From an uncultured Clostridia bacterium (GTDB taxonomy: Bacteria > Bacillota_I > Bacilli_A > RF39 > UBA660), in the NCBI GenBank assembly GCA_947304495.1, contig CAMZBG010000001.1, positions 1-56,765 on the forward strand: DNA of 56,765 nt, given 5' to 3'. Shown one piece after another: positions 358-28,370 of the stretch. How positions within the stretch are numbered: the first letter of the stretch is position 1; every line of letters starts with the position of its first letter. Under the pieces are notes generated by a model that saw only the letters and a list, made by a program, of their open reading frames with translations, had not been told where the DNA came from and did no database searches. A program made the position numbers and the translations under genes.

Positions 358-880
358 ATATACTGAAGATTGGTTACCAGTTAAAAATATTGTCAATGGT
401 ATGATTGAATTAGATAATAAGATGAAAGTTACTGGTGTAAAGATTAGGCCTAGAAATATCTTTATTTTGGATGATAATTCTAGAAATAATATTATAGCTA
501 TGTTAAGAACATTTTATGATTCAATCGATTTTGAATTTTGGTTAGTGTCAGCTGATAGACCGGTAGATATAGATAATTATCTAGCTACTTTACAGATTCA
601 GTATAATCAAGAAGGAGATCCGCGTATTAAGAAATTAATTAGTCAAGATATAGAGAAAGCTAATAATTTTGTGAGAAATGTTAGTGATACGGAATTCTAT
701 ATATTGTTTAAGGAAAAGAATGTCGATCTTATTCAGAAAAGATTAAGAACATTGATGATGGGATTATCTAATGCTGGGCTTGATTCTGTTCAGACATCAA
801 ATACTGATTTGAGAGTTTTGTTGGATAGTTTTCTAAATGGGGGAATGACTACTGAAAATAAGGTGGTGTTGCCACAATGA
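335..880 (+). CDS. VirB4/TraC amino-terminal-type protein of the T4SS
   Basis: A 181-residue soluble protein with no signal peptide or membrane segment. Its beginning (LPVKNIVNGMIEL followed by GVKIRPRNIFIL) resembles the amino-terminal domain of TraC/VirB4-type conjugation ATPases, and the middle looks like the helix-rich part of that domain, but no nucleotide-binding motif is present. The next gene starts inside its stop codon (ATGA, 877-880) and encodes the ATPase proper. It is therefore either a stand-alone amino-terminal module of a split VirB4 or a separate partner protein. The reading frame is open and well preceded by a ribosome site, so it does not look like a degraded fragment. Confidence 0.65.
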   Translation: MSSKTGSKYTEDWLPVKNIVNGMIELDNKMKVTGVKIRPRNIFILDDNSRNNIIAMLRTFYDSIDFEFWLVSADRPVDIDNYLATLQIQYNQEGDPRIKKLISQDIEKANNFVRNVSDTEFYILFKEKNVDLIQKRLRTLMMGLSNAGLDSVQTSNTDLRVLLDSFLNGGMTTENKVVLPQ

Positions 881-2664: not shown

Positions 2665-2692
2665 ACCAGAAGTAAGTTAGGTGGTGGTATAT

Positions 2693-4477: not shown

Positions 4478-4488
4478 AGGGGTAAAAT

Positions 4489-5214
4489 ATGAAGAAAAGA
4501 TTATTAATTACGATTGTTTTGATATTATTTTTAACTGGATGTAGTTGTGAATATGATTTGACGATTGAAAATGATATATTTAAGGAAGTAGTTAAATTTG
4601 GTAGTAACGATACGAGTGAAGTGTCAAATTTTTCTATGAATTGGAAAATCCCTACTAATAAGGAAGAATATGAATTTGGTTTAGACGAAGAAGCAAATCC
4701 AGAATATAGTAGTAAATTATATGATTATAATTTAAATGGAAATGTTTTGACATTTAATCATGATTTTACGATGAATGCATATATTGATTCATCAGCTGTT
4801 TCTTTATGTTATGATATGTTAAGCGTTACTGAAAGAGGCGATGATTTAATTATATCTACAGGTAAAGAAAATATGTGTTTTACTAATTATCCTACTTTAG
4901 ATAGTTTAAGAGTAAAGATTAAAGTTGATGGGCAAGTAGTTAGTAATAATGCTGATAGTGTAAATGGAAATACATATATATGGAATTTTAGAAAAAATAA
5001 TGCTCTAGATAAAGGAATTAATTTAGTTGTTAGAGAAGTTAATAATGCAAATGAAGGTAGTAGTAGTAATAATTCTAATAACAATAATAATTCAGTTACT
5101 AGAAAAGATGATTATTCATTTTATATCTTTTTTGGTATATTGTTAATTGTAATGCTATCTGTGTATTTTATAGTAAATAAATTTAAGAAAAATAAAGATG
5201 TAATGGATGATTAA
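4489..5214 (+). CDS. Predicted lipoprotein with a carboxy-terminal membrane helix
   Basis: A 241-residue envelope protein. The amino end is a lipoprotein signal with lipobox LTGC (cysteine at residue 18), so it should be lipidated and cut by LspA. The body is an uncharacterised polar domain of about 170 residues. An Asn/Ser-rich linker (near 190-202) leads to a second hydrophobic segment (about 211-230) and a basic tail, so the protein would be held in the membrane at both ends. It starts 11 bases after the wall hydrolase and precedes the coupling-protein gene, so it is probably an accessory part of the secretion system. I do not recognise a family. Confidence 0.7.
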   Translation: MKKRLLITIVLILFLTGCSCEYDLTIENDIFKEVVKFGSNDTSEVSNFSMNWKIPTNKEEYEFGLDEEANPEYSSKLYDYNLNGNVLTFNHDFTMNAYIDSSAVSLCYDMLSVTERGDDLIISTGKENMCFTNYPTLDSLRVKIKVDGQVVSNNADSVNGNTYIWNFRKNNALDKGINLVVREVNNANEGSSSNNSNNNNNSVTRKDDYSFYIFFGILLIVMLSVYFIVNKFKKNKDVMDD

Positions 5215-5227
5215 TCATTCATTTTTC

Positions 5228-5256
5228 TTGCTTGTTTTTTTCATACGTGATATAAT
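5228..5256 (+). promoter_or_regulatory. Sigma-A-type promoter for the coupling-protein gene
   Basis: TTGCTT (5228-5233), 17-base spacer, TATAAT (5251-5256), with an extended -10 TGA just before it. It lies 27 bases upstream of the coupling-protein ATG, so this gene can be transcribed separately from the genes to its left. Confidence 0.7.
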
Positions 5257-5282
5257 CTTATTTATGAGCGAGGTGTATAAAA

Positions 5283-9117: not shown

Positions 9118-9182
9118 ATAGTTCTCCTTTACAAAGATAATTTTAACGTAAAAAATAATAAATGTCTAGTATTATTATTTTA

Positions 9183-9211
9183 TTGAAAATAAATATAATA
9201 AATGGTATAAT
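9183..9211 (+). promoter_or_regulatory. Promoter of the pseudopilin-lspA-rluD-rhomboid operon
   Basis: TTGAAA (9183-9188), 17-base spacer, TATAAT (9206-9211). It lies about 29 bases upstream of the pseudopilin ATG in a divergent intergenic region. Confidence 0.75.
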
Positions 9212-9239
9212 TTTATTAGTTTTATGTGGAGGTTATCTT

Positions 9240-9728
9240 ATGAATAAACGTGGTTTTACTTTAGTTGAACTTTTGGCTACTTTAATTATTTTAGGATTAA
9301 TAGTATCTTTGACAATTGTTGGTATTAATACAAGTGTTAATAAAGCTAAGGAGAAAACTGAAAATGTATTTGTAGGTGTTGTTCGTGATGCACTTAGGAT
9401 GTATATTGACTCTGATGCCAAACGACTTTCTTTTGATACTAGCAGTTTTTGTACAATAAGTAAGACACATGGAAATGTAAATGTTTATAAGGCAACAGAT
9501 GAGTTAACATTTACGGCTGTTTTAGATTCTAAATATGTTCCATTAACAAAAAATGAATTTTTAAATCCAGCAAATAAGGATACTGATAGGTATGAATGTA
9601 GTGATAATGGAACACTTGAAATATATCGTGATGAAGATTATGTATATTACTATAAGATATCTAAATCTAGTTTGGGATGCTTAAATGATGAGGATGGATA
9701 TATTACTAATTTACCAGATTGCAATTAA
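9240..9728 (+). CDS. Type IV pilin-like (pseudopilin) protein
   Basis: A 162-residue prepilin. The start at 9240 (ribosome site GGAGGT at 9228-9233) gives MNKRGFTLVELLATLIILGLI, a textbook class III signal: a short basic leader, cleavage after glycine, methylatable phenylalanine, glutamate at +5 and a long hydrophobic helix. The rest is a small globular domain with several cysteines (one near residue 57, further ones near the carboxy end), perhaps disulphide-bonded. It would be processed by a prepilin peptidase not present in this window. There are no type II secretion or competence pilus genes next to it. Co-transcription with lspA, rluD and a rhomboid protease suggests a general envelope operon. 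Confidence 0.85.
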   Translation: MNKRGFTLVELLATLIILGLIVSLTIVGINTSVNKAKEKTENVFVGVVRDALRMYIDSDAKRLSFDTSSFCTISKTHGNVNVYKATDELTFTAVLDSKYVPLTKNEFLNPANKDTDRYECSDNGTLEIYRDEDYVYYYKISKSSLGCLNDEDGYITNLPDCN

Positions 9729-12303: not shown

Positions 12304-13098
12304 ATGAATGAGAAAATTGAAAAAGTTATTTTTGGCTTTAAAGAAAGAACTGTTGAAAAGGCAATTGCTGGATTTACAATAGAGACAGATAATGAACTTA
12401 CAGATAAGGTACGTGCATATTTGGATACGCTTAATGATGATGATATTAAGGCAGTTCAAGCGTTTTTGAATAAGCTATTAAATTTATGTTATAATGGTCA
12501 ATTATATGAAATGGATATGGTTCCTAATGAAGTAGAAATGATTAATAGTCTATCAGAGGAGGAATTATTTCTATTTAAAGAAACTATAATATATTTTAGT
12601 GGTAGATTATCTATTCCAGCTAATATTGATTTATTAAAGAAAGCATATTATTTAGAAGATAATAAATATATTAAATTAAATATTACTTTTGCAACTTTAG
12701 GCAGTTTTGATGAAGAAATAGAACTTGATTTTGTCAGAAGAATTATTCCTGATAATGAATATGATGTTATGATTCGTTCATGGACAATGGCATTTTTTAT
12801 GAATGCTGCTAATCCGTATGAGTATAGGGATAATGCTGGTGATTGGACTGCTGCAAAGATGCCTAGAATTAAACGTTTAGCTATAAATGATGAAGGCAAT
12901 CCTAAATTTAAGAAAGCTATGTCTTTTAGGCTATTTGATTTGGTTGTAATATATTTATTTTTAGAAAGCCGCAAAGGGGATACGTTAACTGAAGAGGAAA
13001 AAGGGATTGTTAGAGATGCACTAATAGATTATCAGCTATATTCTCAAGAAAAGAAACAATTAATGAGTGATTATAAACAAAAGATATTAATGAGATAA
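12304..13098 (+). CDS. Conserved-looking protein of unknown function (264 residues)
   Basis: A soluble, acidic, helix-rich protein with no signal peptide, no membrane segment and no motif I recognise. It begins MNEKIEKVIFGFKERTVEKA and contains a WTMAFFMNAANPYEY stretch in the middle. It is monocistronic, with its own extended -10 promoter and a strong terminator, so it is probably not part of the ATPase operon that follows even though it is adjacent. The leader is very short and the ribosome site is a weak AGGTGAT. The reading frame is clean and the codon use matches its neighbours. No function is proposed. Confidence 0.7.
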   Translation: MNEKIEKVIFGFKERTVEKAIAGFTIETDNELTDKVRAYLDTLNDDDIKAVQAFLNKLLNLCYNGQLYEMDMVPNEVEMINSLSEEELFLFKETIIYFSGRLSIPANIDLLKKAYYLEDNKYIKLNITFATLGSFDEEIELDFVRRIIPDNEYDVMIRSWTMAFFMNAANPYEYRDNAGDWTAAKMPRIKRLAINDEGNPKFKKAMSFRLFDLVVIYLFLESRKGDTLTEEEKGIVRDALIDYQLYSQEKKQLMSDYKQKILMR

Positions 13099-13110
13099 TT
13101 TGATAAATAG

Positions 13111-13140
13111 AAATAATAGAGTTTAAATTCTATTATTTTT
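13111..13140 (+). terminator. Terminator upstream of the rotary-ATPase operon
   Basis: Nine-base-pair stem AATAATAGA/TCTATTATT with loop GTTTAAAT, followed by T residues. It isolates the ATPase operon from upstream transcription. Confidence 0.85.
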
Positions 13141-13199
13141 TTATTTAAAAAATACTGAATTTAAACGTTTATTTTCTTTCAAAAATGCTACTTTTTTCG

Positions 13200-13228
13200 T
13201 TGACATATATGGTGTAAAATGATATAAT
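13200..13228 (+). promoter_or_regulatory. Perfect consensus promoter of the rotary-ATPase operon
   Basis: TTGACA (13200-13205), exactly 17 bases, TATAAT (13223-13228). It is a full sigma-A consensus and the best promoter in the window. The untranslated leader is about 35 bases and ends in AGAGGTG before the ATG at 13269. Confidence 0.92.
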
Positions 13229-13268: not shown

Positions 13269-16200
13269 ATGAAAAAATTATTAGATAGTAAATTTTTATT
13301 TATCGTAGCACTTAGCTTGGTAATGCTTATAATTCTTGGTATTGGGGCATACTACTTGTTTGATAACAATGATGCTACTTTTGTTAAAAGCGGATATGTT
13401 TTAAATCCAATGAGTGCAAAGAGTGAAAAATACTTTTTTGATGCGAATACTGGTTATAGAGAAGATTTATCTTCAATGATTGTTTTTAAAGATGTGGATA
13501 ATAATAAGGCCTCTATTTTAAAAGATAGTTTTCTTCATTATAATGATGGCTCTATATCATTTTTGAGTAACGGAGCTATTCTTGATTTAGATTCAATTAG
13601 TAAGAATAGTGAAGCTGTTAATTTTTATAATATAACCAACAAGTCAATATTGACTAGTGAAGGAAAAGGTTATTATGTTAAAACAGCGGCTGGAGATGTT
13701 GCTTTTGTTAATTTTATTGGAAGAATAAATGATGATAAATATATTGTTGCTGGTGACTTGGAAGCTAAGATCCCTGGCAATGAAAAGAATATCAAAGGAG
13801 ATTATTTTGAAATTGTATATTCTGAAGAAGGAATAGTTAATATTGAGAATAAGGATGTTAAATTTCAAGTTACGGCACAGGGAACAGTTATTTATGCCGA
13901 TACGATAGCTATTGATTTAGGAACAAAAAGAATTAGCAAAAATGGTGAAAACATTATGTCAATGACAGCAATTACAATTAATGGCGATGAGAATATTGAA
14001 ATAATACCAAATGAAGAAGAAGCAGAGCCTAGTTCAAGTAGCTCTGATAATGGAGATGGAAATGGTACTGGTACTACTGAAGATGGCAATGGCAATGGTA
14101 ATGGCGAAGGTGGTACTGGAAACGCAAATATCGATGTTGAACGTGAAGAAGGAATAATTATTTCACTAAAAGATGCAAGTGTTGGTAGTACTAATGTAAA
14201 TGTTACGTTTGATATATTTAATAAAAAAGACGATGATAGATTTACTTTAAAAGTAACAAACTTAGAAACAGGCAGAACTGCTGATGTTGTTGAATCAGTT
14301 CTATCTGATGAAGAAATTCGTGTCAATTTGTTATCACCTAATACAAAATATTTATTTACGGTAGTAAATGAAACTGATGGCAATAAATATTTCCAAAAAA
14401 TATTTGAGACAAAGGATTTTGGAATTAAATTAGAAAAGAGTTATACGACTGATAGTGAAATTGGATACAAAGTTACAATAGATAAAGGTACAGATATTAC
14501 TAATGCTAAATTATCACTTTATAAATACAATGAAGTTACTAAGAAAAATGAAATAGTAACTACTACTTATAAGCAAAGTGATTCTGATGAGGAAAAATCT
14601 GTTGATAAGGTTGTTGAACTATCTAGCTTAAATGGTAATATTGAAGGTGCCCATGAAATAGTATTCGATGGATTGGATAGCAATACGATATATACAGCTG
14701 TTTTAGATGAGTTTTCAATTGTTTCTTCTAATTTTAAAGATATATATAATATTTCATTAACTTCAATGACATTAAAGCAGACACCAACATTTAATGATAT
14801 GGTTGTCAATAAAGATGTTGGAAGTGGAACATTTAAATTATCTTTAGAAAATATTAGCGATCCAGATAATGCTATTTTGACTTATAAATATTTAATTTAT
14901 GAAGCAAATAATCCTAATACGGTAGTTATACCTGAAATAACTAATACTAGTGCTGCACCAATCGAAGTTAAGGTTGGTAATGGTGAAGGACAATTAAAGA
15001 GTGATACTAATTATTTTTATAAAGTTGTTATTGAATACTACGACAATGAAAAATATATTGAGTATATAACTAAAGATAAGATTACTTTTGTAATGGGTAG
15101 TGATCCACATATTATTGTAGTTCCTAATGAGGAATTAATTAGTTATGATCGTATTGGAGCAACAATATCTTTAGTTGATAATAGTTGCTTAGTTCCAATG
15201 CCAGGAAGAGAAAATTGTAATTTTGAAACAGATAACGCAGTGGTTGAGGTATATAAAATAAATTCAGTACTTGGTGGCGATAATGAAAATAAAAAGACAT
15301 TGGTATATTCTGAACTAGCAACTTTTGAAATAACTGATGATGATATTAAATATGATTTATTTGTCGATAAATTACAGGCTGGCCAAACTTATGAGATTGT
15401 AGTAAGAGCTTTTAGAACTGATATGCCTGGAGAAAATAGAATGGTGATTGAACATTATGAGGGGAGATCACAAAAAACAATTACTACTAAATCATTGGCA
15501 TCATTTGTAAATGAATGGAAAGATCAGACTAGTAACGCTAACCATGTTATTAATTTAAAGACCAAATTTATTCCAAAACCAGGAGTTGGAACAATGACTG
15601 CTGAGGAAACAATCAATTCTATTAGCAGAGTTGTTGTTAAGGTATATGAAGGAAATTATGAAGAAAACATTCAAAGTGTTCAGCCATTAGCAGTAGCTGA
15701 ATATAAGAATACTGATGAATTCAGTATAAAAGAGAATTTCTATGATAATGGATATATTATTACATCGGATGGCGATTTTGGATTAACACTTGAAGGCTTA
15801 AAAGCTGATGGAAAACTAAATGAATGTTATACGGTTGCAATATATGCATATTATGATGAAAGCGATAGTAGTGAAATAACAATCGATGGAAATATAATTG
15901 CATATAAGATATCTCCAATATTATTGCTTGAAGATATTGTCGAGCCCAAAATCTTAGTTGATCCAATTAATAAAGTGGATTCTGATATCGAGACTAATCT
16001 AAATAATGATTCAACTGTGGTTGGATATAGTGTAAAGGCTACTTTTGATAAAGATGGTTTAGTCGCTAATGGTATGATTCCTAAAGAAATAAATTTCTAT
16101 GTTTATACGGCAAATGGACATAGAATAGATTTTTATGTCAAAGATAATAATGGTAAGTTACATCAAGTTAGCAGAATAAATGAGATACTTGGAGATGAAG

Positions 16201-18965
16201 GCTATAAAAATACAGAAATATATATGGCCGATGGTAGTGAGTATCAAAATCCTGATGATGACGTTATGCATAGAGGTAATAAATATTTCATAGGTTATGA
16301 AGTAATTATTGATAGTAGTGGAACAAGGCTATCATATCCAAGTAGTGCTAATGTTGAAGACATTTCTGATCCAGGATTTTATCAATATGTGGAACCATTC
16401 AAGGAAGTTCCAACAGTTAAAATGTATATTGCTAAATCTACAAATGATACGATAACTTATAGATATGATATAAAAGATCCAGATAATTCATTATATCGTG
16501 AGAGTCTTAATGGCGACTATGGAATGTATTATAAGATTAATGATGGTAGTGAACATAAGATAAACATTACTAAAGTAGATGGCGATTATGTAATGTTCGC
16601 AGGTGATATAACACTTGTAAATCTTAAAAATGGTGATGAATATGCACTATATCATAAGGATAATATATTTAAAAGCGGCGATTTTGAAAAAGATGTTTTG
16701 AATTATTTCGGCGATGCTGATGATGGTAAAAGAGTATTTGATGGTTATTATGATTTAAAGGATGAACGTTATGCAATAACATATAAAGTTATTAACAATC
16801 CTTTAGTAGATAACAGAGTATACGTTAGGTTATTCGGCGATGAAAAAATTCTAGATAGAGTTATTAGTTATCAAATAACATTTAATGATACTGCTGGCCA
16901 CGATGCAATAGTTGTCGAAAAATGGCAATTAGAGTCATGCCCTAATGAAAGCACTAATACCCGTAGATGTTTTTCAGTTGATTATTCAGACCTTAAGACG
17001 ATGAAGTCTAGTGTTGATAATGATAATACAATTACTGTTAGTGTCAAAGCTATATATGATAATGGACTTAGTGGTTATGATTTTACCGTAGGTGATGACA
17101 AAGAATATAAGTATATGATTCTTCAAAATGATTTAATTCCTGATAAGGCAGTAACTTATGTTTCACTATCAGAGGCTGGAGAACCTGATTATTGGACTGA
17201 AGGATTTGGAATATCAAAAGGTTATTATACTTATTCGATGTTAAATGATAGAATTTCATATCGTAGACGTGATAAGAATGAAAATTCAAAGCCTTTAAGA
17301 TTTGAACTTGGTACAGCTGGATATGTGACTAATAAGGGCGTTGTAACTCCTAAAATGATATCAATCGATACGATTAGTGGTAGTGACAATACATTCTTAT
17401 TCTATAGTTATACACCAAAGGTTAAGATTGTAAAAACAACAAACTTAATTAATGGAGCAGTTATTGATTTGAACTTAGTTAGTGCCGATGCTTCTGATTT
17501 TTGTGAAGAGGGAAATGGCCATACATGTGTCAATAATAGTCATAGTGATTTCTACTTATACATAGAAGTATGGGATACATTGGATGATGTTGGAGATTTA
17601 AGTAAGACAGTATTACCAACATCAAAGGTTAAGATTAATCGTAATGATGTATCTTCTGTATTACAGGCTGTTGTTAAAAATTTAACGCATGGTACAAAAT
17701 ATTATTATCAAGTATATGCTGATTTGAATAAGAATGGTCAAAAAGAGCGTACACAATTATTCGATGCAGGTAATAAAACTGAATATAAAACTGAAATTTA
17801 TGATTTTACAACATTAGCTTCTGGTAGTATATATCATGACTTTAATGTTAGATATTTACCAGATACATCTGGAGAATATAATGATAAATTAATGACTACA
17901 AATTTCACTTTAATAGCTTATAAAAATAATATTGCCTTTAATTTTGATTTGGCATATGCATTTTGTGAACTTAACGATGAAACTTGTGGTATCCAAGATG
18001 GAGATACGAACATATTTAAAAGAACAATTTTAGAAGATAATATGTCAACTAATGTATCAGATACGGTTAATATTACCGATAAAAATTTAGAATATGATAA
18101 AAATTATACATTGCTTGCTTATATCATATATGATCACTATAATAAAGAAAATGGAGAAATTGAAAAAAATTATCTATTAGTTAATAGAATAGATAGTACA
18201 GTTAATTTGAAAAAGTTAGAAACTCCAAGCTTTGTTGTTAATAGAAAAGCAATGTATGCTGATGGTGATTACTTTATCGAATTTAATATTAACGTTAATG
18301 ATCCTGATAGAGTAATTACTGATGGTAAATACTATGTAAAATTAGTTCATGAAGGTGAGACAGTAGGTGACTTGCAGGTTAAAGTAAACGGAAATTATAC
18401 TACTGTTGGTACAAATGGTAATTATGCGGATTATGCTTTTAGAGCGGCAGATACTAATAAGACTATTCGTATAAAAGGATTAGAGAAGGATACTAAATAT
18501 ACAATATATGTTAATGGTGTAGCATATATGAACAATTCAAAGCTAGAAGAGGAAGAGAAAGAATATCATGCTGAAACATACCATTTAGTATTCTCTACTA
18601 ATGACTATGGTGTAGCAATAGGTAATGAATTACTTCCAGCAGCTACTGCTAATAGTATTATCATAACTTTCTTGGGTGGCTCTAACTTTGATAATATTAG
18701 TGAAGTATCATATACAAGAGGGCTTTGGGAAAATGAAACAAGCAGTTCAACAATTTCTGGTTCTTATACGATTGGTACAGATAAACGATTTGAACCGGCT
18801 AAAGATACTGGAAACTGGCAGTTTGTTATAGATCCACCTGGACTAGTTAACGAAATAGACCAGCCATATAAATTGGTATTGTTATTTGAAATTACTGATC
18901 CAGATACGGGAGATGTAGTTGATAATATAAGAGTTTCTACTCAGGTAATCTACAGTATAAAATAA
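13269..18965 (+). CDS. Giant single-pass surface protein with FN3-like repeats, motor-operon component
   Basis: A 1898-residue protein, first gene of the rotary-ATPase operon. A short basic cytoplasmic end is followed by one membrane helix (about residues 10-31) with no cleavage site, so the rest should lie outside the cell. Residues about 35-250 form a beta-rich membrane-proximal domain also found in the next two proteins. A Gly/Asn/Asp linker follows (about 255-292). Then comes a long series of beta-sandwich modules with the FN3-type signature L-x-x-x-T-x-Y, seen near residues 355, 468, 576, 702, 842, 1117, 1471, 1607 and 1738. There is no LPXTG signal or enzyme motif. It may be a fibre, adhesin or load coupled to the motor; this role is inference from the operon. 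Confidence 0.85.
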   Translation: MKKLLDSKFLFIVALSLVMLIILGIGAYYLFDNNDATFVKSGYVLNPMSAKSEKYFFDANTGYREDLSSMIVFKDVDNNKASILKDSFLHYNDGSISFLSNGAILDLDSISKNSEAVNFYNITNKSILTSEGKGYYVKTAAGDVAFVNFIGRINDDKYIVAGDLEAKIPGNEKNIKGDYFEIVYSEEGIVNIENKDVKFQVTAQGTVIYADTIAIDLGTKRISKNGENIMSMTAITINGDENIEIIPNEEEAEPSSSSSDNGDGNGTGTTEDGNGNGNGEGGTGNANIDVEREEGIIISLKDASVGSTNVNVTFDIFNKKDDDRFTLKVTNLETGRTADVVESVLSDEEIRVNLLSPNTKYLFTVVNETDGNKYFQKIFETKDFGIKLEKSYTTDSEIGYKVTIDKGTDITNAKLSLYKYNEVTKKNEIVTTTYKQSDSDEEKSVDKVVELSSLNGNIEGAHEIVFDGLDSNTIYTAVLDEFSIVSSNFKDIYNISLTSMTLKQTPTFNDMVVNKDVGSGTFKLSLENISDPDNAILTYKYLIYEANNPNTVVIPEITNTSAAPIEVKVGNGEGQLKSDTNYFYKVVIEYYDNEKYIEYITKDKITFVMGSDPHIIVVPNEELISYDRIGATISLVDNSCLVPMPGRENCNFETDNAVVEVYKINSVLGGDNENKKTLVYSELATFEITDDDIKYDLFVDKLQAGQTYEIVVRAFRTDMPGENRMVIEHYEGRSQKTITTKSLASFVNEWKDQTSNANHVINLKTKFIPKPGVGTMTAEETINSISRVVVKVYEGNYEENIQSVQPLAVAEYKNTDEFSIKENFYDNGYIITSDGDFGLTLEGLKADGKLNECYTVAIYAYYDESDSSEITIDGNIIAYKISPILLLEDIVEPKILVDPINKVDSDIETNLNNDSTVVGYSVKATFDKDGLVANGMIPKEINFYVYTANGHRIDFYVKDNNGKLHQVSRINEILGDEGYKNTEIYMADGSEYQNPDDDVMHRGNKYFIGYEVIIDSSGTRLSYPSSANVEDISDPGFYQYVEPFKEVPTVKMYIAKSTNDTITYRYDIKDPDNSLYRESLNGDYGMYYKINDGSEHKINITKVDGDYVMFAGDITLVNLKNGDEYALYHKDNIFKSGDFEKDVLNYFGDADDGKRVFDGYYDLKDERYAITYKVINNPLVDNRVYVRLFGDEKILDRVISYQITFNDTAGHDAIVVEKWQLESCPNESTNTRRCFSVDYSDLKTMKSSVDNDNTITVSVKAIYDNGLSGYDFTVGDDKEYKYMILQNDLIPDKAVTYVSLSEAGEPDYWTEGFGISKGYYTYSMLNDRISYRRRDKNENSKPLRFELGTAGYVTNKGVVTPKMISIDTISGSDNTFLFYSYTPKVKIVKTTNLINGAVIDLNLVSADASDFCEEGNGHTCVNNSHSDFYLYIEVWDTLDDVGDLSKTVLPTSKVKINRNDVSSVLQAVVKNLTHGTKYYYQVYADLNKNGQKERTQLFDAGNKTEYKTEIYDFTTLASGSIYHDFNVRYLPDTSGEYNDKLMTTNFTLIAYKNNIAFNFDLAYAFCELNDETCGIQDGDTNIFKRTILEDNMSTNVSDTVNITDKNLEYDKNYTLLAYIIYDHYNKENGEIEKNYLLVNRIDSTVNLKKLETPSFVVNRKAMYADGDYFIEFNINVNDPDRVITDGKYYVKLVHEGETVGDLQVKVNGNYTTVGTNGNYADYAFRAADTNKTIRIKGLEKDTKYTIYVNGVAYMNNSKLEEEEKEYHAETYHLVFSTNDYGVAIGNELLPAATANSIIITFLGGSNFDNISEVSYTRGLWENETSSSTISGSYTIGTDKRFEPAKDTGNWQFVIDPPGLVNEIDQPYKLVLLFEITDPDTGDVVDNIRVSTQVIYSIK

Positions 18966-18988
18966 ATAAGAATACGGAGGTATAAAAT

Positions 18989-20425
18989 ATGAAAAGGAGA
19001 AAATATGATATAAGGAATAAGAGAAATTTTGTGATAATTTCAATTTTAGCGATTTTAGTTATTGTTATTTTCTCCTTATTCATATACAGATATAAGCATG
19101 CTTCAAGAATAGAGTATGAGATACCAACTGGTAGTATAATTCATGATGATAGTAAGAATTATATTAGTGTTGAAGAAGATGCAATTCTAAAAGTAAGATG
19201 GAATGGTAACTATTATTTAATTTATCAAGATAATAAAATCAATTTAGGAAAGAAAGTTATCGTTTATAATACGGTTACTGGCAGTTTGAAATTATATGGT
19301 AAATTTTATGAAATTGATGATAAAGGTAAGATAATAGTTAATAATGATGAGACTGTTCTATCCAATACAACAAATACTAAGTTTTATAAATTGGATGATA
19401 GAAAGTATTTACTTGTAGATAAACAGATTGTCAGTGATGACAGAAGTATCGAAGCTAATAATTATTTATTGGTTGAACTCGATAAAATGGGTAATGCAAA
19501 ACTATCTAATAATAAATTAAATTTAAAGACAATAAATCCGGCTACCTTAGTTACTTCAGAGTATACTTTTGATATCAATAACGAAGTTTTAAAATATGGC
19601 AGTTTATCTGTTGATTTGAAGAAAATTATTGGTAGTACTAATGAATATAAGGAAAAAGAAGAAGATAAAGAAAAAGATGTAGATAATACTCAGAATGCAA
19701 ATAATAATACTACGTGGAATTCAAATGCTGGGGCTGGAAATGTTGTCAATAATAATGATACTGGTAATGTTAGTGATATTGGCGAAATAAAGGATAAAAA
19801 CAAGATGACAGCTATTGTTAGAATACAGGAAGGACTTTCACAAATAGATGTCGATTATGTCGTATATGATCCATATAATGAATATAATTCTGTTTATGCG
19901 GAAGTTATCAAACCTGGTAAAGTAGATGTTGTATATTTATCTAAAACCGATACCCATGTGGTATTTAATGGACTTGCTGCCAATACCGAATATAAAATTA
20001 ATTTTGTTTATACAACAAGCGATAGTGCGACTGGTAAAACAATTCTTAATACTTTTGAAAGTGTTACATTGAAGACAAAGATGCCTACTTATAGTATTCT
20101 TCCGTATAGAGTATCTAATGTAAGTAATACGCTTAGCTATCGAGTAAATCTTCAAGAAGGATATGCCGTAACAAAAGTAAATGTAAGTTTGTCATTTAAG
20201 TATGATGAAATTGATCCTGAAACAAGAGAAGTTAATTCAAGAGATGTTAAATTATATAGTCATGTAGATGTTCCTAGTGGAAGTAAATCAGTAATCGGAT
20301 CTTTCGATATATCTGAATATAATATTGATAAGGGAACACTTATGACATTAAATATCGATAGTGTCGATGTGGCATCAGGTAATTTAAAAATTAATAGTGA
20401 CTATCCTTTTGTAATGGGGAGGTAA
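18989..20425 (+). CDS. Short paralogue of the giant surface protein (478 residues)
   Basis: A single-pass membrane protein with a basic start, a membrane helix at about residues 15-33 and a large outside part. The layout mirrors the first 510 residues or so of the preceding giant protein: a beta-rich membrane-proximal domain (about 40-215), a charged and then Asn/Gly-rich linker (about 220-265), one FN3-like module (FNGLAANTEYKINFVYTT near 324) and a following beta domain. Similar landmarks appear in the same order in both proteins, for example DDRKYLLVDKQI here and NDDKYIVAGDLE there. It looks like a shorter duplicate rather than a fragment, with its own ribosome site (GGAGG near 18976). Confidence 0.85.
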   Translation: MKRRKYDIRNKRNFVIISILAILVIVIFSLFIYRYKHASRIEYEIPTGSIIHDDSKNYISVEEDAILKVRWNGNYYLIYQDNKINLGKKVIVYNTVTGSLKLYGKFYEIDDKGKIIVNNDETVLSNTTNTKFYKLDDRKYLLVDKQIVSDDRSIEANNYLLVELDKMGNAKLSNNKLNLKTINPATLVTSEYTFDINNEVLKYGSLSVDLKKIIGSTNEYKEKEEDKEKDVDNTQNANNNTTWNSNAGAGNVVNNNDTGNVSDIGEIKDKNKMTAIVRIQEGLSQIDVDYVVYDPYNEYNSVYAEVIKPGKVDVVYLSKTDTHVVFNGLAANTEYKINFVYTTSDSATGKTILNTFESVTLKTKMPTYSILPYRVSNVSNTLSYRVNLQEGYAVTKVNVSLSFKYDEIDPETREVNSRDVKLYSHVDVPSGSKSVIGSFDISEYNIDKGTLMTLNIDSVDVASGNLKINSDYPFVMGR

Positions 20426-20431
20426 TATAGT

Positions 20432-21154
20432 GTGAGTAATGTAATTGATTTTTTGAAAAAGAAATATAAAATCTTGATTCCAGTTATGGTGGTTTTAGTA
20501 TTACTTATTGCGGTATATTTCCTATATCGTGAATATCGATATGATACTTATCGTAACAAAAAAGAAGTAGAAGTTGTTCAATATTTTGGTGGTATAAAAA
20601 CAGAGTATACAGCGGTAGTTACATATAATTTAAAAAATGTAATTATCGATGTATATGGATTGGATAGAAATGTTGAGTACGATTCAACGCCAATATATTA
20701 TAAGGAAGAAGATAAGGTAATATTTCCAAATATGATGGGAATAGTATTTCCACTTGATGATGTTAGTCAATTCAAGTTGTATAAATATGCTTTATATGAA
20801 AATAAAGATGGTACTCATGAAATAACTAATGGAAACGTTACTAAAAGTTATAATCATTTCTTCTTATATGATGGTGATGGATTATATTTCTTTCCTGAAG
20901 AAGTTACTATTAAAATAGATGGAAAAGATTATACAAAATTGGGGGCTGGTTCATACATATCTTTATATGGTGGATATACAGCAACATATTATGATAAAGC
21001 AAACGATGAAGTTAAAAGGTTGGAGATTGAGGGAAAAACATTGACAGCTGTTTCTGACAAAATGGAAATTAATTTGAATTTAGGATATTGTGTGCTATTT
21101 GGAAAGAAAGTTTTATTAGCAAATCCATACGATTTAAATAGTATTACTAATTGA
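20432..21154 (+). CDS. Minimal paralogue: membrane helix plus membrane-proximal domain (240 residues)
   Basis: The start is GTG at 20432, well placed after GGGGAGG (20416-20422). A basic amino end, a membrane helix (about residues 14-32) and an outside domain of about 200 residues form the whole protein. The domain has the same run of beta-type segments as the membrane-proximal domain of the two preceding proteins (for example GSYISLYGGYTATYYD here and GDYFEIVYSEEGIVNI in the giant protein), but there is no FN3-like module. The three proteins thus form a graded family. It ends just before a second promoter. The relationship was judged by eye and is weaker than that between the first two. Confidence 0.75.
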   Translation: MSNVIDFLKKKYKILIPVMVVLVLLIAVYFLYREYRYDTYRNKKEVEVVQYFGGIKTEYTAVVTYNLKNVIIDVYGLDRNVEYDSTPIYYKEEDKVIFPNMMGIVFPLDDVSQFKLYKYALYENKDGTHEITNGNVTKSYNHFFLYDGDGLYFFPEEVTIKIDGKDYTKLGAGSYISLYGGYTATYYDKANDEVKRLEIEGKTLTAVSDKMEINLNLGYCVLFGKKVLLANPYDLNSITN

Positions 21155-21180
21155 CAGAAATTGACGTTCAATGATATAAT
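21151..21180 (+). promoter_or_regulatory. Internal promoter for the motor subunits
   Basis: TTGACA (21151-21156), 18-base spacer, TATAAT (21175-21180). It overlaps the stop codon of the 240-residue gene and lies 37 bases upstream of the c-like subunit gene. It would let the cell make motor subunits in excess over the surface proteins. Confidence 0.85.
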
Positions 21181-21205
21181 AAATTTTAGAATAGAGAAAC
21201 TATAA

Positions 21206-21466
<261 letters not shown>

Positions 21467-21467
21467 G

Positions 21468-22235
21468 ATGATTGTAATATTTATAATTGTTTGTTTGATT
21501 ATTGCTTTTCTTGTATTCTTAATGTTCCTTATACTTAAAAAAACTGTTGGAATTGTCAATGCTCAAACAAAATCATATTTTGTAAACAAATTACAGGGCT
21601 ACGATGATTTAATACAGGATAAGGAAGCTAGACTTCAAGAAATTGATGAAGCCATTAAGGATAGAGAAAAGGGATTAAAAGAACAAGAAACACAAGTAGA
21701 TAGAAGCAATGGGTATGCATTTGATGAAAATGTATTGGATTTACTTAATTCAACGAAGTATCAAGATCAGAATATCTTTGAGTTGAATAAGAAAATAGAT
21801 GAAAATTTTGTAGTTAATTATGAAGAATTAATTAAAGACTTTTTAACGCTATGTGATGATGCAAGCGATTATGAATTTTGTGTTAATTTAAGGGGTAAGT
21901 TTAATAGTGATACAATCTATAAGCTAGAAAGTATGTTGCCAGAAGTCGCTGATAAAGAGATTAAAAACATGCTTAACAATAAAGAATGTAAGGTATATGA
22001 TACATTTAAGTTAGTAACTAGTGAAATTAATGTATCTAACTTTATCGATTATTTAGATCAATTGGTTATTTTAAATGATCCTAAAGTTAAAATATTGGTT
22101 GGTAATAAGAGTGAAAATTATGATCATCTAAGTGAATATATTGAAACAGTATTCAACGATAAGATATACAGAGGTATTAAAATTATATATAAAAATAAGG
22201 TATATGATTTTAGTCTAAGTGAAAGGAATGTATAG
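21468..22235 (+). CDS. Peripheral-stalk-like protein, b-type helix fused to delta-type domain
   Basis: A 255-residue protein. A membrane helix at residues 2-24 leads into a charged coiled coil (about 45-78), as in F-type subunit b. The remainder looks like subunit delta: a helical region, then a carboxy-terminal section with KVKILVGNKSENYDHLSEYIE and finally YRGIKIIYKNKVYDFSLSERN, which resembles the family ending in which GG-x-x-x-x-x-GD-x-x-x-D-x-S is conserved. Its place between the c-like and alpha-like genes matches b and delta in standard atp operons. It would fix the alpha/beta head to the membrane. Only one base separates it from the c gene. The ribosome site is not obvious, so translation is probably coupled. 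Fold assignment is by pattern and position. Confidence 0.7.
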   Translation: MIVIFIIVCLIIAFLVFLMFLILKKTVGIVNAQTKSYFVNKLQGYDDLIQDKEARLQEIDEAIKDREKGLKEQETQVDRSNGYAFDENVLDLLNSTKYQDQNIFELNKKIDENFVVNYEELIKDFLTLCDDASDYEFCVNLRGKFNSDTIYKLESMLPEVADKEIKNMLNNKECKVYDTFKLVTSEINVSNFIDYLDQLVILNDPKVKILVGNKSENYDHLSEYIETVFNDKIYRGIKIIYKNKVYDFSLSERNV

Positions 22236-22237
22236 AT

Positions 22238-23563
22238 ATGGATGACATTTGGACTAGCAATTTAAATGAAACAATCGATAGTATTAAAAACAATGATAAC
22301 GTTTATACAGCTGGTAAGGTTTTACGTGTAAATGATTATAATATTGAAGTTACTGGACTAGATGATGTTTCATTTTATGAAGAAGTTAATGTTGCGGATA
22401 AAGCGTCTGGGTATGTATTTGGAATATATCCGGATAGAGTTATTGTGGCTTTAGTTAAGATTAATGGAGAAATTAAACCAGGTGATATGGTATTTGGTTT
22501 AAAGAAAGAATTTAAGTGTTTATTTAGTTTGGATTCAATTGGTAAAGTAATTGATGTTTTTGGCAATGATTTAATAGCTGGGAAAAAATTTGATAATTTA
22601 ATCGAACTTAGCGTTGAAAATAAGCCCTTACCACTTATGGATAGAGGTAGTGTTAAACGTGAAATGTTAACTGGTATTACTGGTATCGATTTAGTTTATC
22701 CAATTGGTAAGGGACAAAGACAATTAATTATCGGTGATAAAAAAACTGGTAAAACACAAATTTGTTTGGATACTATTGTCAATCAAAAGAATAAAAATGT
22801 TTTATGTATATATGTAGCTATTGGTAAAACTAAGAAGGAAGTAAAGGATATTTATTACGAACTTACTAAAAGGGGTGCAGCATCTTATACGATTGTAATT
22901 GCATCATTTCACGATGAACTTCCTACAAGGACTTATTTAACTCCATATGTGGCATTATCAATAGCAGAATCTTTCATGTTACAGACATATGATGTACTTG
23001 TATGCTTAGATGATTTAAAGAAACATGCAGATATATATCGACAGATAAGCTTAGCTAGTAAAAAAACACCAGGACGTGATGCTTATCCATCTGATATTTT
23101 CTATACACATAGTAGATTGCTTGAAAAAGGTTGTCAGCATAAAAATGGTGGATCAATAACGATTTTACCAATTGTTGAGACAAAAGCTGGGGATATAACA
23201 GATTATATATCTACAAATATAATATCTATTTGTGATGGACAGATAGTGCTTTCTGAAAAGAATTTTGCAAAGGGTGAAAAACCGGCTATCGATTATGGTT
23301 TATCAGTAAGTCGTCTTGGTGGTAATGTCCAAGATGATGCAATGAAAAAACTTGGTAGTAAGGTTAGAATAGATTTACTTTCTTATTTGGATGTACGACA
23401 AATATATGAACTTGCCAATACAGATGAAATGAGCGAGGAATTAAGAAATAGACTTAGTGAAGGTAAAATGATGATTGATAAATTGAAGCAATATAAATTT
23501 TCACCAAAAACAAAGAAAGAAATGATAGATAGTTTTGAATTTTTAACAAATCAAAATAAATAG
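22238..23563 (+). CDS. F1 ATPase alpha-like subunit
   Basis: A 441-residue nucleotide-binding subunit, about 60-70 shorter than standard AtpA, with the loss in both the beta-barrel start and the helical end. Landmarks are Walker A GDKKTGKT (166-173), DDLKKHADIYRQISL (258-272), PGRDAYPSDIFYTHSRLLEK, the SICDGQIVLSEKNF region and GLSVSRLGG with the arginine finger R359. The absence of a catalytic glutamate after Walker A is as expected for the regulatory alpha type. The finger is retained, so the beta sites should hydrolyse ATP. It lies in the middle of the operon between b/delta-like and beta. Sequence divergence is much greater than in housekeeping atpA, which suggests this is a specialised copy; a normal ATP synthase, if any, is elsewhere. 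Confidence 0.95.
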   Translation: MDDIWTSNLNETIDSIKNNDNVYTAGKVLRVNDYNIEVTGLDDVSFYEEVNVADKASGYVFGIYPDRVIVALVKINGEIKPGDMVFGLKKEFKCLFSLDSIGKVIDVFGNDLIAGKKFDNLIELSVENKPLPLMDRGSVKREMLTGITGIDLVYPIGKGQRQLIIGDKKTGKTQICLDTIVNQKNKNVLCIYVAIGKTKKEVKDIYYELTKRGAASYTIVIASFHDELPTRTYLTPYVALSIAESFMLQTYDVLVCLDDLKKHADIYRQISLASKKTPGRDAYPSDIFYTHSRLLEKGCQHKNGGSITILPIVETKAGDITDYISTNIISICDGQIVLSEKNFAKGEKPAIDYGLSVSRLGGNVQDDAMKKLGSKVRIDLLSYLDVRQIYELANTDEMSEELRNRLSEGKMMIDKLKQYKFSPKTKKEMIDSFEFLTNQNK

Positions 23564-23575
23564 AAAGGGTAATGA

Positions 23576-25181
<1,606 letters not shown>

Positions 25182-25182
25182 T

Positions 25183-25722
25183 ATGAATAAAGATATTGAT
25201 ATACTTGGAAATATTGTTAATTTTTTTGTAGTATCGCTAGTATTTTTATTAGTATTATGGATTACTTTTAAGATAACACTTAAAAATTATGATGTTAAAA
25301 CTAGTAAGATAAAGTTTTATGGATTATTTTTAGGAATGGATAATGGATCTATATTAGCTTTTAGTATGATTACATTAAATTATATCTTTTTGATATGGTG
25401 TACAGCTACTTTTACGGGACTTAATATATATTATATATTTATTACAGTATTCTTTATGTTAACTGCTGATGTAGCGATAAAAGATTTTAAAAGAATACCA
25501 ATTGATTTGATATATACGATGATCAATATGTTATGTATATTTGTTACAAGTATGTTATATAAGTATTTAACTACGACATACACGACGATATACTTATTAA
25601 TAGTATTAGGTCTTGTTACCGTATTTGTCTTTTTATACTTTACGTATATGACATTTAAATTATTAAATAATATAGTATTAAAGGAAAAGAATTTACAGAA
25701 AAAAGATTATAAGAAAATATAG
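25183..25722 (+). CDS. Five-helix membrane protein of the motor operon
   Basis: A 179-residue integral membrane protein with predicted helices at about residues 8-30, 57-76, 80-97, 107-126 and 134-158 and a basic carboxy end. I do not recognise a family. Its place and size make it the only candidate in the operon for a stator partner of the c-like ring, but it lacks the hallmark of subunit a: the sole arginine is R104, in a loop, and no membrane helix holds an arginine. That fits a ring without carboxylates. It could anchor the stalk or link the motor to the surface proteins. It is translated from an ATG after AGAGGG and followed by the gamma gene. Confidence 0.75.
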   Translation: MNKDIDILGNIVNFFVVSLVFLLVLWITFKITLKNYDVKTSKIKFYGLFLGMDNGSILAFSMITLNYIFLIWCTATFTGLNIYYIFITVFFMLTADVAIKDFKRIPIDLIYTMINMLCIFVTSMLYKYLTTTYTTIYLLIVLGLVTVFVFLYFTYMTFKLLNNIVLKEKNLQKKDYKKI

Positions 25723-25741
25723 AATATAAAGGAGGAGAATC

Positions 25742-26506
25742 ATGAAGATAAAGAACGTTGTTAAAGTTATGAACTTTCAGTCACTGCTTAGAATGGATAA
25801 AGCTTTGAAACAAGCTGAAAAATATCATGATGTTGGTAAAGAAATAACAGCTATTCTTGGAAGAATTATGTATAACAAGAATTTGGTTCTCGATAAGAAG
25901 ATTCTTACTCCAGATTCCACAAAGCCAAAATTAAATATTTATATAGCAAACGATTATGGATTTTGTGGTAATTTCAATGCCGAAATTAGTAGGCAAATTA
26001 GAAAAGATAAAGATTGTTATAAAATTATTATCGGTAAGAAGATAATATATAACGATGATAAAACATTATTAAAAATTGAAAAAGAAGATTTCCTTAAAAG
26101 ATTTATTGAAATCGAAAAATGTATTGAAGAAGCAATTGATAGTATGAATTATAGTTCTGTCAATGTTTATTATAATCACTATCACTCATTAACATCTTTT
26201 GAATTTATGAAAATTCAATTATTTCCAGTAGAGTTTAGTGGTGAATATTACGAAGGAGAGGACTTTGTAATAGAAAGTGATATTAATAAGATTATCGGTA
26301 GTTTGATGACTTTCTATATATGTTATGAACTTAGAATGTGTGAGAGTATTTCTTATGCAGCAGAAAATGTTCTTAGAAGTCAGATAACTTCATCGGCATT
26401 AGATAAGATTAAGGTAAGAGAAGAAGAAATTAGAAATGAAGAAATAAAACGAAGAAAGGAAATAAGTATTCTTAAGAGTGTTGAAAACTTTAAGAAGATT
26501 ATGTAA
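25742..26506 (+). CDS. F1 ATPase gamma-like central-stalk subunit
   Basis: A 254-residue protein. The amino end (KIKNVVKVMNFQSLLRMDKALKQ) is a long helix of the type that enters the alpha3-beta3 head. ANDYGFCGNFN (69-79) corresponds to the conserved SDKGLCGSFN strand of AtpG. The carboxy end is a second long, highly charged helix (about 205-252, CESISYAAENVLRSQITSSALDKI and onwards), the partner in the coiled-coil shaft. The middle Rossmann-like part is shorter than usual, about 30 residues below typical AtpG. The gene is displaced to after epsilon and the membrane protein. The ribosome site GGAGGAG is among the strongest of the operon. Confidence 0.9.
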   Translation: MKIKNVVKVMNFQSLLRMDKALKQAEKYHDVGKEITAILGRIMYNKNLVLDKKILTPDSTKPKLNIYIANDYGFCGNFNAEISRQIRKDKDCYKIIIGKKIIYNDDKTLLKIEKEDFLKRFIEIEKCIEEAIDSMNYSSVNVYYNHYHSLTSFEFMKIQLFPVEFSGEYYEGEDFVIESDINKIIGSLMTFYICYELRMCESISYAAENVLRSQITSSALDKIKVREEEIRNEEIKRRKEISILKSVENFKKIM

Positions 26507-26521
26507 TTTTGGAGGGATAAA

Positions 26522-28342
26522 ATGATAAAACAAGGGAAAGTTAACGATAGCATATTAGAGAAAAAGTTTAAAATACTTAGAACTAGTATAATGTTAGGTA
26601 ACATTACTAATCGTGAAGAGGTAATGGAAAACTATAGAGAAACAGCAAAAGATGTAGATAGATTAAGAAGAGAAGTTTATGAAGAATTACTTGCTGGTAA
26701 AATGTATACGACAAAGACACTTGAGGAAGAACGCGATAGATTAAAAGACTTAATAGCTTTTACCGAAAATAGAGTTGATGAGAGAAATGCTTTTATCGAT
26801 GATTATATCAAAATTACAAATAGTTTCTTAGATGACTTACCAAAAGTATCAAATGAAGATGAACTTGTTTCTTATAAAATTAGATTAGATAATATAGATG
26901 AATACTTGAGAAATTGTGATGAAATAAATGAATTAAATGCTAAATTAAAAGAAAAAAGAAAAGAATTAGAAGAGAAGTATGAAAATAAGGCTAGTAGTGA
27001 AATAATCAACAATAAGTTGGAAGACGAACTTATTGATGAATTTAACAAGATAATGCTTAAAGATGAATATTATGCTGGCTTAAATTATACGGATATTGAT
27101 AATGAATTGCTTAAAATTGATAGTCACTTAGAAGATAAGAAAGAAGTTATGAATACTTTTATATCTTCATATGAAGCACTTAAAAATGCTGGTATAAGTG
27201 GAGCTGAAAGAGAAGAATATCTATCTTATGTTTCTGATAGTAAAAAGGATTATTATAGTGAATTAGAAAAGAAATATATGCTTAATATATATAAGATTGT
27301 TTTGGATAAAGAAACTGATTATGATTTGCTTTATCAGAAGAGGGAACATCTTAATAATGTATTAAATGATAGATTAAACAATAGACGTGAATTAGATATT
27401 ACAAGTAGAGATGAGTTAGAATACTTTGAAAGTATTTGTGAAGAACAATTTAGTATAATTAAATCACAAAAGATTAATATGGAAAATATTGATAGGTTAA
27501 TAGCTCAAATTGCTGAATATGAAAGTAGATTAGAGGAATTAGATTTAGCTAATAACAGAGATGAAATAGCTGACATTTTACGTGAATATTCGGTAAGCAA
27601 ACCTGATGTTTACAAGACAGAGTTGCCTAATCAAGAAGAAGTTCGAGAAGAAGTAATAAAGAAAGAAATTGAAAACAGCGGTGGTCCTAAACCAAGCAAT
27701 ATGGTTGTTAAAGTTAGTGAACCTGTTAAAATAGATGTTAAGAATGCCAAAGATACTGCAAAACTTGTTATGAAGAAAGTAGTTATTGTCTTAGAACCTA
27801 AGAGATTTAATACTAAAAGGGATAAGCTAAAGGAAGCTGAAAGTGAATTAGCTATCGAAAAAGCTCTAGAAAGTATGAATGATCTTGAAGATGAGACTAA
27901 GAGTGATGATACATTTGTAACATTGGATCTTAATAGTGATACGGATGATAAAAGTGACGATGTATTTGTTAGCACTTCAGATAATAATATAGATGTTTCA
28001 CTAAATGCGGATGATAAAAATGATGAGTTTATATCTATTCCTACGGAGATTTTTGTCGAAGAAGCTGATACTTCAAGAGAAAAACCACTTGATTTATTCA
28101 GTCAAACTGATCCGTTCTTAGATGATAATCAATTTGAAATAAGTGATAATGTATTAAGAGAAGATAGTGTTGCTGGTATGCCTAAGACATTCAATATAGG
28201 AACAGTTAAACCTACGAGTATGTTATCGCAAATAGAAGAAAAAGTAGAAGAAAACGATGATATAATATTACCTACTATGGGTCTAACTGGTAGTGAAAAG
28301 GTAGATGTACCAATCGTTTCTGAAAATTATTTAAATGAATAA
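26522..28342 (+). CDS. Large cytoplasmic coiled-coil protein, last gene of the motor operon
   Basis: A 606-residue acidic protein without signal peptide or membrane helix. Residues 1 to about 365 are almost entirely charged helices with coiled-coil character (NELNAKLKEKRKELEEKYEN and similar). A mixed region follows (about 366-445, with KVSEPVKIDVKNAKDTAKLV), and then a low-complexity acidic tail rich in Asp, Ser and Asn (about 450-606). It begins 16 bases after gamma, with GGAGGG upstream, and ends at the operon terminator, so it was retained as part of the set. It may tether, dimerise or regulate the motor from the cytoplasmic side, as accessory proteins do in mycoplasmal F1-like machines. 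No family is recognised and the role is inference. Confidence 0.75.
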   Translation: MIKQGKVNDSILEKKFKILRTSIMLGNITNREEVMENYRETAKDVDRLRREVYEELLAGKMYTTKTLEEERDRLKDLIAFTENRVDERNAFIDDYIKITNSFLDDLPKVSNEDELVSYKIRLDNIDEYLRNCDEINELNAKLKEKRKELEEKYENKASSEIINNKLEDELIDEFNKIMLKDEYYAGLNYTDIDNELLKIDSHLEDKKEVMNTFISSYEALKNAGISGAEREEYLSYVSDSKKDYYSELEKKYMLNIYKIVLDKETDYDLLYQKREHLNNVLNDRLNNRRELDITSRDELEYFESICEEQFSIIKSQKINMENIDRLIAQIAEYESRLEELDLANNRDEIADILREYSVSKPDVYKTELPNQEEVREEVIKKEIENSGGPKPSNMVVKVSEPVKIDVKNAKDTAKLVMKKVVIVLEPKRFNTKRDKLKEAESELAIEKALESMNDLEDETKSDDTFVTLDLNSDTDDKSDDVFVSTSDNNIDVSLNADDKNDEFISIPTEIFVEEADTSREKPLDLFSQTDPFLDDNQFEISDNVLREDSVAGMPKTFNIGTVKPTSMLSQIEEKVEENDDIILPTMGLTGSEKVDVPIVSENYLNE

Positions 28343-28370
28343 AATAGGTATCAAATACCTATTTTTTTTA
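28341..28370 (+). terminator. Terminator of the rotary-ATPase operon
   Basis: Nine-base-pair stem AATAGGTAT/ATACCTATT with loop CAA, then a T-run; it starts at the stop codon of the coiled-coil gene. The next 100 bases before radC show no other structure I recognise. Confidence 0.88.

Follow-up and report, generated by a model that had tools for sequence, protein, structure and literature searches.

The systems closest to the one treated here are rotary ATPases of mycoplasmas. According to a 2026 report, Type 2 drives gliding, and the seven-gene Type 3 F1-like X0 ATPase, called 'specific to mycoplasmas' there, is encoded beside surface proteins and is required for the function of these MIB-MIP proteins, for which a resetting of the binding proteins has been proposed (PMC12994834). 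The Type 2 G1-ATPase of Mycoplasma mobile is reported to have a protein with 12 transmembrane segments (12-TM), a large two-TM protein and GliD, no c subunit, and an alpha subunit without helix H1 (PMC11864180; PMC3369863); the loss of H1 is reported for Type 2 (PMC11864180) and predicted for Type 3 (PMC12994834), and a hypothesis cited in PMC11864180 derives GliD from a b-delta fusion. In known c rings a carboxylate forms the ion site (PMC3692424). Here we describe a gene cassette in a stretch of 56,765 nucleotides from an uncultured Clostridia bacterium (contig CAMZBG010000001.1), hereafter the window, which encodes surface proteins (SP1 to SP3), a c-like proteolipid, a b/delta-like protein, alpha, beta, an epsilon-like protein, a five-helix protein (X5), gamma and a coiled-coil protein. 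To judge from motifs and profiles, its catalytic motifs are intact, gamma is present, c is conserved without the ring carboxylate, and most genomes that hold the cassette have no recognisable subunit a. On balance we lean towards the view that it encodes an ATP-driven rotary machine of F1Fo descent that has given up its ion path but not its mechanics, and that works on surface proteins of bacteria which are probably walled.

Pfam matches over the cut-off are ATP-synt_ab in alpha (22238-23563; all window coordinates refer to the forward strand) with 240.9 bits and in beta (23579-24931) with 218.9 bits, ATP-synt in gamma, the central shaft (25742-26506), with 79.9 bits, and ATP-synt_C in the c-like proteolipid (21218-21466), with 35.0 against a cut-off of 24. 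By profile, gamma matches ordinary gamma at 98.7%, and the proteolipid is an F-type c (98%, E 2.7e-13). Window beta carries GGAGVGKT from residue 147, GERSREG from residue 178 and ELSEED from residue 380, and alpha the arginine finger R359, so that the intact F1 catalytic residues claimed in the initial annotation are borne out. Across the family, GGAGVGKT is found in 21/21 and GER[ST]REG in 20/21 beta rows, and SVSR[LVI]GG in 20 of the 21 alpha rows. When alpha is compared with the top-ranking ordinary alpha chains, the alignment begins at residue 7-15, but with G1-alpha it begins only at residue 27; alpha thus retains an N-terminal stretch that G1-alpha lacks, and its C-terminus is shorter than in ordinary alpha. 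At three other loci (L013, 8817-11486; L024, 9905-13174; L079, 4891-9138) alpha is 890 to 1416 residues long, the extra part in L013 and L024 being a long, acidic, repetitive C-terminal tail; in the subclade of the window, alpha is short and the coiled coil is encoded by a gene of its own.

The ring, by contrast with ordinary rings, has lost its ion site. When family and ordinary c sequences are aligned together, the position of the ring carboxylate is acidic in 0/40 of the former versus 13/13 of the latter (all E), and the family has A in 21, T in 14, S in four and M in one, which agrees with the initial report of a missing ring carboxylate. The loop acids are retained, together with the GRNPE loop and a first helix rich in glycine. 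Pairwise omega was computed for ten genes within the subclade of the window, and is lowest for c (0.015-0.069, 14 of 15 pairs being countable), so that, of all parts tested, the ring lacking an ion site shows the strongest conservation. Values for the other motor genes are 0.039-0.082 (alpha), 0.065-0.125 (beta), 0.048-0.136 (gamma) and 0.056-0.129 (epsilon), followed by X5 (0.125-0.22) and b/delta (0.132-0.316). The coiled-coil protein, SP2 and SP3 (0.215-0.514) evolve faster than alpha, beta, gamma, epsilon and c, as would be anticipated of components that face variable surroundings or have a loose build.

Alpha and beta do not fall in with any familiar class. A tree was built from 54 joined alpha and beta rows, 21 of them from the family and eight Type 3-like from mycoplasmas, with V/A rows left out and Types 2 and 3 represented by the Type 3-like rows only. 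The 21 family rows form one clade on a long stem (Shimodaira-Hasegawa-like approximate likelihood ratio test, 100), apart from ordinary F1 and from mycoplasma Types 1 and 3; the grouping with an ordinary ATP synthase that would have spoken against a distinct machine was therefore not found. Among the 25 of 35 NCBIfam families listed for each subunit, no named alpha or beta family exceeds its curated cut-off, the best scores being 413.4 against 554 for alpha and 452.8 against 462.85 for beta. An identity as N-ATPase (alternate F1F0) was rejected, since both subunits miss its NCBIfam cut-offs (alpha 348.9 versus 750.5; beta 411.1 versus 752). A V/A-type identity was likewise rejected, since no V/A-type chain occurs among the best 60 of 219 PDB matches of beta or the best 60 of 220 of alpha, though the Pfam V/A C-terminal model PF22919 does match beta over its cut-off (39 versus 24.7).

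The same tree bears on the alternative that the cassette is a Type 3-like machine in which ATP drives the release of ligand from surface binding proteins, with no continuous rotation of a fibre. The described Type 3 enzyme adjoins surface proteins, and the cassette ATPase likewise travels with such proteins. Against this stand the unsupported sister relation, the family joining the eight Type 3-like rows at a support of only 47 and on long branches, and the shift of either group once the other is removed from the tree: the family then lies beside mycoplasma Type 1 (85), and Type 3 near the root. Nor is there a membrane part in common by profile. Profiles of Type 3 proteins 1, 2 and 5 do not match those of c, X5, b/delta, SP2 or SP3, with at most 0.8% for c and X5 versus protein 1 and for SP2 and SP3 versus protein 5, and 0.1% for b/delta versus protein 2, the GliD counterpart. 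PF01732, the MIP family, was not found in G016, the one holder genome covered by this result. We regard this alternative as unlikely, though it is to be taken seriously.

A second alternative is a divergent ion pump, in which X5 would fill the role of subunit a with a different chemistry and polar groups of the ring would bind the ions. Subunit a (PF00119) was found in two of the 40 holder genomes (G026 and G035), both times within ordinary F1Fo operons on other contigs, in comparison with 52 of 61 genomes sampled from one phylum; with 38/40 holders lacking it, no PF00119 gene elsewhere consistently accompanies c. The check for a separate atp operon thus turned up an ordinary F1Fo besides the cassette in these two genomes. 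Further strong PF00006 matches occur in G025, G026, G030, G035 and G039, including V/A-like pairs in G030, G035 and G039, and in the remaining 35/40 the family's own genes are the only strong ones, so that a pump could be wanted there. On these counts the machine is not simply the ATP synthase of its lineage by a different name, nor does it go only with the lack of such an enzyme.

The protein on which a pump would depend is X5 (25183-25722), whose predicted fold resembles subunit a on moderate evidence, and which is possibly a disabled form of that subunit and not something unrelated to it. In 34 rows, no arginine occurs at residues 105-122 of its long helix and only 5/34 have one at residue 123, with arginine or lysine near the helix start at residues 103-104. 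To read this as a missing arginine assumes that X5 is the counterpart of subunit a; otherwise there is no subunit a at all. The initial annotation, which had subunit a missing and listed a five-helix protein, therefore holds by sequence family and for the presence of the gene, and may need amending in so far as the predicted fold points to a degenerate subunit a. At residue 66 of X5, in the second long hydrophobic helix, 14/34 rows have R, 4/34 have K, and the window has N. Such a fold would suit the pump, yet the site lacks a carboxylate in 40/40 c rows, the long helix lacks a conserved arginine, the cassette is kept beside an ordinary F1Fo in G026 and G035, and kin do without a pump, as 107 of the 117 genomes of G016's order have no PF00006 match over the cut-off. 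From the latter count the order, which may be RF39, an order of small genomes, seems to live mostly without any rotary ATPase. The divergent pump is accordingly improbable in our estimation.

The cassette is not rare in sequence data. A scan of genome contigs with alpha yielded 43 loci, of which 42 are of the cassette kind and the remaining one (L043, 35% identity) is a relative of ordinary type; by record titles the 42 come from uncultured Bacilli, Bacillales, Mollicutes, Clostridia and others. At least 120 protein rows, the window's own counted, are at least 89% identical to alpha, and cassette-type loci extend down to 55%. Best-match identities to the window are 52-99% for c, 55-94% for alpha and, where the contig includes it, 57-88% for beta. 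Distant loci have the order SP1-SP2-c-b/delta-alpha-gamma-beta-epsilon-X5-SP3. Often SP4 comes next, a surface protein whose length is 1600-2100 residues or more; several of its copies run off the end of their stretch. With the extra genes set aside, the ordinary ATP synthase operons compared are arranged in the same way; in the subclade of the window gamma and SP3 are positioned differently.

Co-inheritance of ATPase and surface proteins is seen even where the genes are unlinked. L006, L007, L008 and L038 have no SP genes upstream of c, and in L005 and L009 the contig starts near c; SP3 is nevertheless present in all 15 holder genomes searched, those of L005-L009 and L038 included, and G007 and G038 have SP1-SP2-SP3 clustered on a contig other than that of the ATPase. 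The proposed co-occurrence check was run in G016's order, where nine of the 117 genomes have strong c-like matches (53-98% identity), the same nine have strong SP3 matches (E 1e-58 or better), and alpha/beta over the cut-off occur in these nine and in G131. If independent, the same nine would be drawn by chance about once in 8 x 10^12, a figure that kinship among the nine makes too strong, and absences among the 117 are soft since the genomes are incomplete. In the phylum of G035, strong SP3 matches occur in two of 398 genomes, G035 and G593, and G593 has c, b/delta, alpha, gamma, beta, epsilon, X5, SP1, SP2 and SP3 all together. G131 has, at L073 on contig C15, an ordinary F1Fo including subunit a besides alpha/beta, with one in-frame TAG within the subunit a match; this is either contamination or a real exception. 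Transpeptidase matches in 117/117 genomes of the order indicate that the holders are probably walled.

The surface proteins themselves are single-span, with an N-terminal membrane helix that was read by eye in SP1 and SP2. SP1 (13269-18965; 1898 residues) continues into a long FN3-like extracellular part, and SP2 (18989-20425; 478 residues) likewise has an extracellular part. SP3 (20432-21154; 240 residues) combines a single membrane helix with an all-beta domain of about 200 residues that is confidently predicted (predicted local distance difference test, 91) and has no close match among the solved structures compared. The 'FN3-rich partners' of the initial annotation are tempered by the SP1 fn3 match, which at 21.7 bits lies under the Pfam cut-off of 25, and its 'three related surface proteins' reduce to a weak SP2-SP3 profile match of 47.7%, SP1 being outside that comparison. 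No Pfam family exceeds its cut-off in SP1, SP2, SP3, X5, the b/delta-like or the epsilon-like protein. SP4 of L018 (14936-21301 of that locus) exceeds 2100 residues and runs off the stretch; it has, by eye, an N-terminal membrane helix and what we take to be an FN3-like part and GLUG-like repeats.

The tight co-occurrence with large membrane-anchored surface proteins would also suit a machine that exports or assembles these proteins instead of moving them. The cassette contains no secretion-specific family over the cut-off among the matches listed, and the N-terminal membrane helices of the SP proteins are plain ones (that of SP3 by model), both of which make such a role hardly probable. That the operon is a decaying or merely regulatory remnant of an ATP synthase, as the lost ion site and the short alpha C-terminus and epsilon might suggest, is scarcely credible given the strong purifying selection on c, alpha and beta, the catalytic motifs retained in 20 or 21 of 21 rows and the conservation across Bacilli and Clostridia loci.

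A torque machine needs a stalk, and one is probably encoded, as a delta match in the b/delta-like C-terminus and the retained N-terminal stretch of alpha, with which ordinary alpha contacts the stalk, suggest. The b/delta-like protein (21468-22235) has one N-terminal membrane helix by eye; over 27 rows G236, I239 and D247 are invariant and S249 nearly so, and these residues fall within the part matched to the C-terminus of delta (57%, hhalign). The match to b is 1.4% (hhalign), and a profile search of the PDB gave nothing relevant. The epsilon-like protein (24924-25181; 85 residues) has the length of the beta domain only; its comparison with epsilon gives 3.6%, in register, and its profile has no PDB match. 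The genes named b/delta-like and epsilon in the initial annotation are present, and their assignment is based on these matches. At L037 (13730-14419) the epsilon-like protein is fused to a putative response-regulator receiver domain, identified by eye, which would tie the motor to signalling.

With motor and ring kept, the ion-binding site lost and giant surface proteins alongside, chemical energy is probably turned, in these uncultured bacteria of the gut type, into movement at the cell surface rather than into ion pumping, the action at the surface being what we infer. In such a machine, alpha3beta3 would be held by the b/delta-like stalk, and ATP hydrolysis would turn gamma, epsilon and the c ring. 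X5, with its subunit-a-like predicted fold and no conserved arginine, would serve as a passive bearing or stator. The single membrane helices of SP1-SP3, and of SP4 in distant loci, packed on or in the ring, would carry torque out of the membrane, a route with a precedent in the Ac45 and PRR single-span helices that sit in the Vo core of mammalian V-ATPase (PMC7979754). The long surface proteins might then be rotated, pulled or reset, with adhesion, surface motility or release of bound ligand as likely uses. More tentatively still, we propose a purely mechanical Fo, in which ring carboxylate and subunit-a arginine are lost and ring and bearing kept, so that an F-type ring has become a transmembrane torque shaft turning or pulling giant fibres of walled bacteria; rotary ATPases would then have become surface motors a second time, independently of mycoplasmas. 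If true, an Fo ring can be retained for mechanics alone, under stronger purifying selection than the catalytic subunits; nature would offer a system that separates torque transmission from ion transport, and walled bacteria a parallel to the gliding and antibody-release ATPases of mycoplasmas.

Several observations weigh against this reading. The 35 holder genomes whose only strong PF00006 matches are the family's own could also fit a pump. For X5, unrelated helical proteins rank equally high (4k0d, 10.1; 7xgg, 9.7), helical bundles attain such Z by chance, Foldseek E values of the subunit-a rows are 4.9-9.8, and comparison of its profile with subunit a gives no match (0.1-0.5%). The DELSEED-type pattern tried fits 11/21 beta rows; the c of L013, alone, has an Asp one residue before the ion site; and neither BLAST nor profile turned up a c within 21 kb at L026. 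Assignment of delta and epsilon is weak, and it is the linkage and shared occurrence of genes that tie the machine to surface proteins.

All 11 genes of the initial annotation are present as same-strand open reading frames at 13269-28342 in the standard code, with gaps of at most about 25 bases within each block. Terminator-like hairpins with T-runs, read by eye, lie at 13112-13144, between the upstream frame and the surface-protein block, and at 28341-28369, after the coiled-coil gene; a rule-based scan requiring three G-C pairs lists neither. Promoter-like sites, each scoring 12/12 with TG before the second hexamer, lie just upstream of SP1 (13200-13228, spacer 17) and ahead of c and the ATPase block (21151-21180, spacer 18); since the promoter scan is overall at chance level, their weight rests on the perfect score and on position. 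Together with the flanking hairpins, these sites suggest two transcription units, SP1-SP2-SP3 and c-b/delta-alpha-beta-epsilon-X5-gamma-coiled coil, so that the complete operon that the initial annotation placed between two terminators keeps its boundaries and probably not its unity. The last gene (26522-28342) encodes a coiled-coil, acidic protein found in the subclade of the window, which was compared with NCBIfam only and has no match there. Directly upstream of the first hairpin lies a 264-residue protein (12304-13098), also without an NCBIfam match. Elsewhere in the window, TraG-type and type IV secretion system coupling-protein genes flank a SpoIID-domain gene (877-7562), possibly a conjugative element, and an N-methylation motif protein (9162-9728) and a T2SSE ATPase (43007-44344) may belong to type IV pilus or competence genes.

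Set beside known systems, the cassette shares with the F1Fo of Bacillota its alpha, beta, gamma and c by profile, the distant-locus order c-b/delta-alpha-gamma-beta-epsilon and possibly a subunit-a fold in X5; it differs in having no ring carboxylate, no recognisable subunit a, a single b/delta-like protein, a short epsilon and linked surface proteins. With the M. mobile Type 2 G1-ATPase it has in common an F1-like motor without an ion-pumping Fo, linked to surface proteins, and it differs in possessing c and in an alpha that aligns from residue 7 with ordinary alpha, unlike the H1-less G1-alpha. The mycoplasma Type 3 enzyme is likewise a rotary ATPase adjoining surface proteins that need it, and its gammas do match that of the cassette (76%), whereas the eight Type 3-like rows form a clade of their own. 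The cassette departs from the Type 2/3 class in having c and an ordinary-like alpha N-terminus and in an operon with no genes for the 12-TM protein 1 or the two-TM protein 5. Of the contrast with mycoplasma ATPases drawn in the initial annotation, the lack of c agrees with what is reported for Type 2, and the tie to surface proteins has parallels in Types 2 and 3 (PMC12994834). Mammalian V-ATPase is an ion pump of another rotary type, and its likeness to the cassette is confined to a possible torque route. In open-licence full text, preprints excluded, we found no description of a carboxylate-less ring, of an F1-like ATPase with c, or of such an operon outside mycoplasmas. The suggestion of a new class of rotary machine is supported in part, by a conserved, non-ordinary rotary ATPase with neither ring carboxylate nor recognisable subunit a, with alpha and beta outside ordinary F1 and with surface proteins retained even where unlinked; it is built differently from the known non-pumping, surface-linked rotary ATPases, and probably arose separately from them.

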